Part shown: positions 19,200 to 25,713 of the stretch, in pieces
Layout of the letters: every line of letters starts with the position of its first letter
Numbering within the stretch: the stretch's first letter is position 1
Assembly (NCBI GenBank): GCA_030054735.1
Contig: JASGVX010000111.1
Span: 1-60,632 of the forward strand
Length of the DNA: 60,632 nucleotides
Direction of reading: 5' to 3'
Source of the DNA: Methanobacteriota archaeon
GTDB taxonomy: Archaea > Halobacteriota > Methanosarcinia > Methanosarcinales > Methanosarcinaceae
Position numbers and translations under genes: made by a program
The notes under the pieces: generated by a model
Database searches by the model: none
Told to the model about the DNA's origin: nothing
What the model saw: the letters and a program-made list of their open reading frames with translations, nothing else

Positions 19200-20150
19200 T
19201 TAATTTCCTCTATTTATTGCATTTAAGCATTCGCATGCTTCTTTTATCAGATAATTCCTGTAATCTCCCTGGTGAAGCCTTGCCGAACGGAGCAGCCCTA
19301 TACTCATGAAAAATGGCAAAATTCTGGTAATGTTGTAAAAGTCCTTTTCACCGCGGCTGTACTCCCAGAGGAAGTTCCCTATATACGGTTCTGCTTTCCA
19401 TCCTCCTCCTTTGCGTAATTCAAACTCATTTTTAAGTTCTGCGCTAAGGACTCCGAGGTCTCTTACCGGGTGTGCCTCAAACCATGAACTCTCAAAATCA
19501 ATGGCATAGGGCTTCCCTTTGCAAAAGATATAATTTGAAGGAGTTACATCCCTGTGGACCATACAGCCATACTCACGGTCGAGCCAGGAGCTGTACCACC
19601 ATTCCCCAAGGAGCTTATTGAAGGTCTCCCTCGTGCTATGGTCAAGTTTAAGGTGATCCAGTACTCCATGATAGTTTCTGAACTCGTTTTCTTTATTGTA
19701 GGAAGACTGCGTATTATCATGCAGCTTCCTGAGCATGTGAGCCACTGCAGCAAGTTTCTCATACAGGTCCTCTTCGTTTTTAAGGTACCAGCCAAGAGAT
19801 TTCCCAGGTATATAATCGGTTACAAGGACACAGTTAAAGTCTTTTCTAACTGCAAGGGGCTTTGAGACGTCTATTATAGAAGCTGCCTTTTTCAAGTTCC
19901 AGTATTCGTTCATCATTCCTTTGTAGGGGTTGTAAGCTTTCAGCTTCCCTGTTGGTTCGGCAAAAAACTTTGCAATTACGCTGAAGTGTTCTCCTTTGAA
20001 TTTATACCTGCAGACTGTGTGAGAGGAATTGTACTTTAAAACATCCACACGGCACTTTTTATCGCGAATACGGTGCCCTACAACTTCTTCAACAAGCCAG
20101 TCCCTGAATGGGTCTCCAGGATATAAGGTATTAACATGGAGCTTTGCCAC
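19200..20150 (-). CDS. APH/choline-kinase-fold phosphotransferase
   Basis: This 316-residue protein has the kinase-like catalytic motif HRDVTPSNYIF (Brenner box, HxDxxxxN), followed by the metal-binding AIDFESS. An earlier region (VLVTDYIPGKSLGWYL) matches the hinge of aminoglycoside- and choline-kinase-fold enzymes. Such enzymes transfer phosphate from ATP to small hydroxylated or amino substrates. It is followed by HAD hydrolase B in the same direction. A kinase paired with a HAD enzyme could phosphorylate and dephosphorylate the same metabolite, but the HAD motif is dehalogenase-like, so this is only a suggestion. No antibiotic role should be assumed. Confidence 0.82.
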   Translation of the reverse strand: MAKLHVNTLYPGDPFRDWLVEEVVGHRIRDKKCRVDVLKYNSSHTVCRYKFKGEHFSVIAKFFAEPTGKLKAYNPYKGMMNEYWNLKKAASIIDVSKPLAVRKDFNCVLVTDYIPGKSLGWYLKNEEDLYEKLAAVAHMLRKLHDNTQSSYNKENEFRNYHGVLDHLKLDHSTRETFNKLLGEWWYSSWLDREYGCMVHRDVTPSNYIFCKGKPYAIDFESSWFEAHPVRDLGVLSAELKNEFELRKGGGWKAEPYIGNFLWEYSRGEKDFYNITRILPFFMSIGLLRSARLHQGDYRNYLIKEACECLNAINRGN

Positions 20151-23198: not shown

Positions 23199-23473
23199 CC
23201 TACATTCGGCAGGTCGACATTTAATTTTTCATAATTTTTGTTGATGCCGATTTTGAAATAATACATAGTATTTGTAGATAACATTTAGGTTTACATATGA
23301 TCAATTAATAATATCTCATACTAAATTTATGAAAAAATGATCCAGTATTTATACATGTGGTGATAGTTGAGCCACATGTTAACCAACTTTCAATCTCATT
23401 TCTAGCCAGTGGTAGCATAAAACGACATCAGGAAAAATGTTCTGATTTTTAATGTCGACCTGCCGAATGTAGG
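23199..23473. mobile_element. MITE family 3 (275 bp, 23-bp perfect inverted repeats)
   Basis: CCTACATTCGGCAGGTCGAC plus ATT at the left end is matched exactly in reverse complement at 23451-23473. The interior is AT-rich with no open frame. A related end (CCTATATTCGGCAGGTTAAC) occurs at 60506, near the end of the window. Confidence 0.75.
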
Positions 23474-23568
23474 GTAATCGCAACAGTACGCCGTCCGTTT
23501 CACTCGCTTCGCTTGCTCAAGAGGACTAATTTATGGACTTTAAGAGTGAACCGAATTTAACAGGACTA

Positions 23569-23701
23569 AGAGCCTATCCAAAAAGTTAGTAATGAATGTT
23601 GAAAAGTCACAATGGATCCATAATTTCAGAGTATCCGTTGCGGTTTTGCATGTCGAATATTGCAAAAGTTATAGCAGGCAACCACTTTTCGGATAGGCTC
23701 T
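23569..23701. mobile_element. MITE family 2, copy 1, next to the pentapeptide gene
   Basis: This 133-bp element has ends AGAGCCTATCCAAAAAGT and ACTTTTCGGATAGGCTCT, flanked by TA. Ends of the GAGCCTATCC type are found in IS5-family elements. It has no coding capacity and lies 11 bp from the stop of the pentapeptide-repeat gene. Confidence 0.75.
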
Positions 23702-23712
23702 AAGTGAGGGAG

Positions 23713-25431
23713 TTATCTTGAGATCTGATATGTAACGACAAAAATAATCAGAGATACCATCATCAGACCAAAAACAGTTTCTCCCATTACTAACGGTTGC
23801 ATTAACGGTATTGATATGTCAGGCTGTATGTTTGGAAAACTGTATCCTGTAAAGGTAGTGAGACTAAAGTAAAGATAGTCAATCAGTTTAACTTCTCTCC
23901 CTTGAACAATTATACCATTTATCTTCCAGAAACAAAAAGCAAATAGAATAATACCAATCATAGAAGTAAAAATAGGATTCCAAATTTGGTCTCCATGCCC
24001 TGCTAAAACTTTTAGGATAAACCCGTCAAAAACTCTTGCCCTAATAATATTCTTAAAGCCACCCTTTGTAAGTAAAAGTTTTCGATAAGACTCATTTGCC
24101 CTATAATGAGCATGTTTTGCTTGAAGACTGTCACCGTTGGATGAATAAAAGTTATATAATTTTGTATATATTTCAAAGGAAGACTCATAAAGAAGTTCTT
24201 TTCTATGTGAAGATAGGAAAGTTTCAAATTCAAAAAAAGATTCTTTCTTATCGTCAAATAAGAAATCTTCATATGCAATAGCTATCATATAGTTTTTTAG
24301 TAATGGTATTTTGTCCCAAAGATGAATATTTTCTTTAGGCTTTTTATAAAATACCAAATCATCAAATTTTTCCTTAATTTCATAAGAAATTTCCCCTTTT
24401 TGATGTGCATCAACTAAATCTTTGTAAAAAATAACTTTGAAAATATTAAGTGCTTTACCATAACCGATATGCCTTATAATTTCTGCTTCATTTAAAGCAT
24501 TCAATATAAAAGTGAAATCGCTTTCTAAGTACTCAATTTTACTGACGTCAAACATAATTTGTTTACTTAATATATATGGAAATGGTCTTTTAGTAGAGAG
24601 AGTATCTGCAACGAACTCGTTAATCTCTTTTTCATCAATTTCAGTAGAGTTAAAGAAAGTGGCATTTCTGAACGTCTTTGTTTCATCAACATATGAGCTA
24701 GATATATTTGAACCTATGAGCCGAGTCCCTTCTAAAATGGATTTAGAATCAAAAATAGTGCCTACTAAAGATGCCTGTCTTATATCAGCATAACTAAGAT
24801 CTGCCCCACTAAGATCCGAACCAGCTAAATCAGATTTTGAAAGATTAGCATAAAATAAATTCGCTTCAATTAATTTACATCCTCTTAAGTTTGCATTTTC
24901 GAGAGTAGCATATTTCAAACTTGCTTTACTAAGATTCGTATCACTCAAGTCTGAATTTGTTAAATTAGCATACTCTAAATCAGCATTCTGAAAATTTACT
25001 GTAGTGAGACTATAATTTTCCAATCTTGCGAATATCAAGCATGCTCCCTTTAAATTAGTTCTGAAAAATTCTGCTCCCTGCAAATCAGCTCTTGGTAGAT
25101 ATGCATTTTCTAAATTTGCTTCTTTTAAATCTGAATCTTGTAAATTTGCGGAATTTAAGTTAGCTTTTTTTAAATTTGCTTTATAAAAAGATGAGCCCTT
25201 TAAATTAGCTAAAATTAAATTAATGCCACGTAAATCAGCAAAGTTAAAATTGACTTTAGAAAGGAAGACACCTATAATTTCATTCTCTTTTAAAAGATTT
25301 AGCTGCTCTTTAGAAGGTCTTTTTTCTTCGATTTCCTGATGCCAGAAGCAGTATTCACTTCCCTCTTCAACTTCAAAAGGACACATAAAGTTATAGTAAG
25401 CACCTTGAAACTTGTATTTGCATCTGGCCAT
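23713..25431 (-). CDS. Pentapeptide-repeat protein fused to a two-TM ion channel
   Basis: Residues 1-35 hold a possible zinc site (C4, C17, C28, H31). Residues about 60-250 are A(N/D)Lxx-type pentapeptide repeats forming a right-handed beta-helix. A helical linker runs to about 465. The C-terminus is a two-pass pore module: a segment IIGIILFAFCFWKINGII, a pore loop YFSLTTFTGYSFPNI and a final segment MMVSLIIFVVTYQ. The TFTGYS filter resembles the TxGYG of potassium channels but lacks the last glycine. The beta-helix is probably a cytoplasmic sensor or oligomerisation domain. The gene is much more AT-rich than the neighbouring core genes and is bracketed by two MITEs, which suggests it was acquired. 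Confidence 0.85.
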   Translation of the reverse strand: MARCKYKFQGAYYNFMCPFEVEEGSEYCFWHQEIEEKRPSKEQLNLLKENEIIGVFLSKVNFNFADLRGINLILANLKGSSFYKANLKKANLNSANLQDSDLKEANLENAYLPRADLQGAEFFRTNLKGACLIFARLENYSLTTVNFQNADLEYANLTNSDLSDTNLSKASLKYATLENANLRGCKLIEANLFYANLSKSDLAGSDLSGADLSYADIRQASLVGTIFDSKSILEGTRLIGSNISSSYVDETKTFRNATFFNSTEIDEKEINEFVADTLSTKRPFPYILSKQIMFDVSKIEYLESDFTFILNALNEAEIIRHIGYGKALNIFKVIFYKDLVDAHQKGEISYEIKEKFDDLVFYKKPKENIHLWDKIPLLKNYMIAIAYEDFLFDDKKESFFEFETFLSSHRKELLYESSFEIYTKLYNFYSSNGDSLQAKHAHYRANESYRKLLLTKGGFKNIIRARVFDGFILKVLAGHGDQIWNPIFTSMIGIILFAFCFWKINGIIVQGREVKLIDYLYFSLTTFTGYSFPNIQPDISIPLMQPLVMGETVFGLMMVSLIIFVVTYQISR

Positions 25432-25496
25432 TAAAATGTCTCCTATTTCTAAAATAATTGTAAAATCTATTTAAATTAATCTAAATAGGTACACTT

Positions 25497-25588
25497 AGAA
25501 TCTATCCAAAAAGTTCTGTTGCTATGAGTGTTATCCACTACTCAACATTACCCTAAAATGTAGTTATTCTACTTTTCGGATAGGCTCT
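25497..25588. mobile_element. MITE family 2, copy 2
   Basis: This 92-bp element has ends AGAATCTATCCAAAAAGT and ACTTTTCGGATAGGCTCT flanked by TA, in the same orientation as the copy at 23569. The two copies enclose only the pentapeptide/channel gene, leaving 11 bp on one side and 65 bp on the other. Confidence 0.75.
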
Positions 25589-25682
25589 AAATAGATTATT
25601 TCCCCTATGTTCTGTTATATATGGGACACCCTGAGACGAATCCTAAAAAAGTCAGAAAAAAGATAAAGGCGATAAAAAAACT

Positions 25683-25713
25683 AAAAAAGTAAGCCTGAAT
25701 TGTTTTCAGGCTT
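25683..25713 (-). terminator. Terminator of the cobA-hemD-ahbC operon
   Basis: On the minus strand the last codons of ahbC and the bases after them form the hairpin AAGCCTGAA/TTCAGGCTT (9 bp, 5-nt loop), followed by ACTTTTTTAG and a longer T-run. Confidence 0.7.

Follow-up and report, generated by a model that had tools for sequence, protein, structure and literature searches.

A single AT-rich gene lies between two short elements

Within the 60,632-nucleotide stretch of Methanosarcina DNA analysed here (hereafter, the window), a single gene stands between two short elements that end in the same sequence. We asked whether this arrangement marks a unit that moves as a whole. The gene is a single 572-amino-acid open reading frame on the minus strand, with its stop codon 12 bp from one element and its start codon 66 bp from the other. 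As the preliminary description had stated, the gene is enclosed alone, there being no other plausible gene between the two elements, and it is AT-rich, with a GC content of 30.9% versus 41.3% for the window. The locus has the following parts:

23570-23700, plus strand: MITE1, a 131-bp non-autonomous element with IS5-type 17-bp terminal inverted repeats (TIRs) and flanks TAA/TAA; its length and interior are those of 129-132 bp MITEs elsewhere in Methanosarcina.
23713-25431, minus strand: the 572-amino-acid gene, with an N-terminal Cys/His motif, pentapeptide repeats, a helical middle and a C-terminal two-helix (2TM) pore-loop domain (from Pfam Pentapeptide, from relatives through which the pore domain was recognised, and from dN/dS).
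25432-25497, minus strand: segment upstream of the gene, native to it and lying within the unit, which carries a TATA-like ATTTAAATAG and a putative ribosome-binding AGGAG (from conservation in relatives).
25498-25587, plus strand: MITE2, a 90-bp internal-deletion derivative of an 872-bp IS5-family element, with flanks TTA/TAA (from genus-wide comparison with the full IS).

The upstream segment is promoter-like: the TATA-like box is kept in three other genomes (G025, G029 and G023), and AGGAGA is kept in these three and in G030. The element ends are inverted copies, reading GAGCCTATCC(G/A)AAAAGT...ACTTTTCGGATAGGCTC, with TIRs of 17 bp. We observed four matches to the TIR in the window, with 0.22 expected. 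Because this genome (G000) holds only about four elements of the TIR type, two of them within 2 kb would be expected about 0.008 times by chance, according to our own estimate. As in a composite transposon, a passenger gene is carried between two elements with compatible ends; the transposase that a composite transposon would also have is lacking from both MITE1 and MITE2.

The flanking elements have only their ends in common

MITE1 is a common, genus-wide MITE of the IS family. It is short, has TIRs and no coding capacity and occurs in several copies, including one more partial copy within this genome, and its alignment with the 129-132 bp MITEs from other Methanosarcina genomes reached z scores of up to 18. 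MITE2 showed no match to those MITEs. It consists of the left ~40 bp and the right ~53 bp of the 872-bp IS, fused at a CCA microhomology. Among 31 genomes of the genus, the whole of MITE2 was found only in this genome and in G025, where it adjoins the same gene; with one copy in each, it is not multi-copy as a MITE would be. In the other genomes, MITE2 positions 1-40 and ~38-90 matched nothing but the two termini of the full-length IS. With the 18-bp ends held fixed, the interiors of MITE1 and MITE2 aligned no better than shuffled sequences in either orientation (z scores of -0.7 and 0.9). The two elements had been described at first as direct copies of one MITE family, which is true for the ends only, because the interior of MITE2, a fusion of IS ends, is unlike that of MITE1.

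The full-length parent IS measures 871-872 bp and encodes a DUF4096/DDE_Tnp_1 transposase of the IS4/IS5 type, which together with its TIRs and a short fixed duplication places it in the IS5 family. We found the end sequence, with two or fewer mismatches, in 31 out of 31 Methanosarcina genomes searched, and full-length copies with an open transposase frame in G014, G025, G028, G023, G004, G008 and G027. G025 contains six near-identical full-length copies. In the metagenome-assembled genome (MAG) studied here, we detected no such transposase. Copies of the IS family are mostly bordered by TAA/TAA or TTA/TTA. The flanks of MITE2 read TTA/TAA here and TTA/ATA in G025, and the outer flanks of the unit, left of MITE1 and right of MITE2, are both TAA, a normal duplication for the family. 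Overall, we lean somewhat towards the reading that the gene and its promoter-like segment, bounded by two dead IS5-family derivatives, form a cassette that moved via the shared ends.

Both elements are chimeric at the ahbD locus

Beyond the elements, the window returns to sequence known from the ahbD locus of other genomes:

23485-23569, no strand: left target flank, ahbD-locus sequence ending GGACTA just before MITE1, common to G003 and in part to G008.
25588-25705, no strand: right target flank, ahbD-locus sequence starting TAAATAG just after MITE2, common to G005 and G003.

The right-flank alignment beat 500 out of 500 shuffles for G005 and 469 out of 500 for G003. In G003, the left and right flank sequences both lie in the ahbD locus, 315 bp apart; these 315 bp, part of which is also present in G005, are absent here, so the event was not a simple insertion. 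On the inner sides, the native 3' flank of the gene runs uninterrupted in G030 through TAAGTGAGG, the point where MITE1 ends here, and in G029 and G023 the 5' flank is common with this genome up to ~14 bp short of MITE2. The outer element ends mark the switch to ahbD-locus DNA and the inner ends adjoin gene-native DNA. Each element thus joins gene-side DNA to target DNA, which would be expected had the gene arrived together with both. With regard to the empty sites that the preliminary description had proposed to look for, the ahbD locus of G003 has no element at either site but holds 315 bp between the two junctions.

Homologous recombination would account directly for the loss of the 315 bp and for both junctions being TAA element ends, if elements of the family had already occupied two positions in the ahbD locus, 315 bp from each other, and recombination with the like elements of an incoming gene had replaced the DNA between them; G005 has an IS-family element near ahbD. 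That element is located elsewhere, however, and neither site in G003 is occupied. In addition, because MITE2 occurs beside this gene alone, the explanation has to suppose that a counterpart was already resident at the right site, and 90 bp offer little homology. We regard such an exchange as possible, if rather unlikely.

The DNA to the left of the unit has also changed. Between ahbD and a gene at 19200-20150, the DNA of this genome (20500-23480) takes the place of other sequence that G003, G005, G008 and G011 have in common. A further inverted-repeat element of ~275 bp, with ends CCTACATTCGGCAGGTCGACATT, occupies 23199-23473, 96 bp left of MITE1.

The gene is far less diverged between species than ahbD

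Orthologues of the gene occur in G030, G029 and G023 (87%, 86% and 87% amino acid identity, respectively, the last frameshifted), and G025 retains a 5' fragment only. The distance from ahbD to the gene exceeds 1 Mb in G029 and G025, and the two are on separate contigs in G030 and G023. These two orthologues and that of G029 are at other loci, with none of these elements at the gene ends. In G025, the 5' gene piece has the same 90-bp element attached, with different DNA beyond the element. Because the other gene end is gone in G025, the two-ended unit was observed only once; in the empty-site comparison for G025, the right flank falls in repeated sequence.

Synonymous divergence (dS) of the gene between this genome and G030, G029 and G025 was 0.21, 0.21 and 0.05 (the last for the first 139 codons only), versus 0.79, 1.38 and 1.04, respectively, for the neighbouring ahbD. 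This suggests that the gene moves between species as a cassette. Joint movement is favoured because this genome and G025 both have the unique 90-bp element next to the gene, although ahbD has a dS of 1.04 and the gene one of 0.05. The comparisons support movement of the gene, and movement together with the element ends.

Ordinary island turnover might instead have brought the gene, with the elements coming to lie beside it separately and their arrangement having no mechanistic meaning. Orthologues without elements at their ends fit this explanation, as do the matching TAA/TAA flanks at MITE1 alone and the situation in G030, where the gene sits among other accessory genes with just one IS end nearby, ~200 bp downstream. 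Insertion beside a resident gene predicts flanks from one locus, however, whereas those of MITE1 come from two loci, as do those of MITE2, which is moreover gene-linked in G025; we judge this explanation quite unlikely. Short-read misassembly at repeats, which could have fused unrelated contigs in this 149-contig assembly with junctions within transposon-derived DNA, is very improbable, since neither MITE1 nor MITE2 has an exact match longer than 18 nt in the other element-bearing stretches examined in the genome, a length that would not mislead an assembler, and G025, a single-contig genome, shows the MITE2-gene link as well.

No second clear MITE-gene-MITE unit was present among the TIR positions of G003, G014, G025 and G029. 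We found no relatives of the gene in viral contigs; a plasmid search with the protein returned general pentapeptide matches only, none covering 80%, and PADLOC gave no defence match for the channel gene.

Several further observations concern the surroundings of TIR elements and gene copies. In G030, a 382-amino-acid membrane protein with no Pfam match (L037 7739-8887) is encoded in the same orientation as the channel gene and ends ~50 bp upstream of it; the two are possibly co-transcribed. TIR element ends in G005 (L112 8485-8687) and G030 (L037 10857-10873) lie at the same TAA by a 2'-5' RNA ligase/phosphoesterase region, which in G030 adjoins the pentapeptide-channel gene. Near the truncated copy in G025 lies a DUF3800 protein with a weak PADLOC PDC-M04A match (L040 8053-9084). 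G019 has a 2.8-kb stretch (L105 235-3044) with one TIR per end and TAA/TAA flanks, containing the right-hand 244 bp of the IS along with a gene for a thiamine-pyrophosphate enzyme; this cargo is also present in G008, G003 and others.

A transposase acting in trans may have moved the cassette

In the composite-cassette reading, the cassette would comprise the channel gene and the promoter-like segment that precedes it, bounded by two dissimilar dead derivatives of one IS5-family IS. The gene product presumably joins a cytoplasmic domain of pentapeptide repeats to a two-helix pore from the K+-channel superfamily. Since the 17-bp ends are preserved in both derivatives, a transposase supplied in trans by a full-length IS copy elsewhere could act on the two outer ends, moving everything between them. 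The cassette would have landed in the ahbD intergenic region of this lineage, with 315 bp of target DNA deleted at landing or later. We infer that an IS5-type transposase acting in trans moved the gene and both elements together, with an adjacent deletion, and consider this mechanism of movement probable.

Of the composite mobile unit in the preliminary description, movement with the element ends agrees with the presence of the gene at other loci, the chimeric junctions, the link in G025 and the low dS. A simple composite insertion is not borne out: 315 bp were lost, the MITE2 flanks are mismatched (TTA/TAA) and no transposase of the IS type was found in the genome, which weakens the composite-cassette reading and leaves it supported, not proven. 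Our results suggest that dead transposon relics with only 17-bp ends in common may suffice to carry ordinary genes between archaeal species.

The channel domain has a conserved non-canonical filter

The protein begins with a Cys/His motif (C4...C28, H31), continues with pentapeptide repeats at residues ~50-235 (Pfam Pentapeptide, E = 1e-42) and ends with its C-terminal 2TM pore-loop domain. For Pfam Ion_trans_2 it scored 11.9 bits, below the cut-off of 22.5, versus 29-43 bits for relatives, and the family profile matched K+ channel structures (TOK, NaK-type and KirBac3.1 chains; E = 3e-5 to 4e-4). One further feature lies in the pore domain:

23821-23859, minus strand: non-canonical filter segment TTFTGYSFPNIQP, residues 525-537, the same in all three intact orthologues.

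The TFTGYS motif that had been singled out as unlike a standard filter is indeed present, and the filter is non-standard. In an ungapped family alignment, the filter columns read GYSFP and not TxGYG or TxGFG, with GYS itself two residues toward the pore helix. Relatives have GLGFS or GLGFA (family), SLGYS (order) or TLGFG (WOR-3 bacterium) at these columns, the extended filters being GLGFSN or SLGYSN and, in the WOR-3 bacterium, TLGFGD. The segment is still readable in the broken G023 copy, and GYSFP is conserved across four Methanosarcina copies. Its placement could instead reflect two compensating 6-nt indels rather than point changes, as the codons fit either.

The dN/dS ratio was 0.30-0.34 for the whole protein and 0.10-0.15 for the channel part; the protein is under purifying selection, strongest in the channel region. 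We predict a role as a tetrameric pore that the pentapeptide part would regulate and whose ion selectivity would probably be altered; the sensor-channel function named in the preliminary description is likewise putative. AlphaFold models reached a pLDDT of 40 for the whole protein (single sequence) and 56 for the channel part (three sequences), and were thus too poor for a fold search. Among the papers searched, we found none on Methanosarcina MITE cassettes or on this type of pentapeptide-channel protein. A conserved non-canonical filter in a natural K+-channel relative is directly testable. The fuller claim, of an archaeal cassette mobilised by two non-identical transposase-free IS derivatives and encoding a pore whose conserved GYSFP filter would confer a new ion selectivity, is unlikely in our estimation.

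Comparison with known systems

MITE-flanked composite units are known from Acinetobacter, in which class 1 integrons lie between MITEs (PMC10969869). As in those units, passenger DNA here lies between two non-autonomous elements needing an outside transposase; the flanking MITEs are identical in Acinetobacter (PMC10969869), whereas only the ends are in common here. The present unit also differs in its archaeal host, its single gene, the target deletion and flanks that show no clean duplication. With the IS5-family IS and MITEs of Methanosarcina, it has in common the 17-bp ends, the 3-bp TAA/TTA duplication, the 871-872 bp parent and the 131-bp MITE; unlike them, it carries a gene and no transposase. 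The protein resembles pentapeptide and Ion_trans_2 relatives from Methanosarcinales and a WOR-3 MAG in its pentapeptide part, its HYR-containing helical linker, its two helices with a pore loop and its ending after the second helix, but has GYSFP in place of their GLGFS, SLGYS or TLGFG. Thus, this mobile-looking cassette belongs to a general type already known, in which MITE-like elements enclose passenger DNA, with two twists: non-identical flanking elements and a conserved odd filter.
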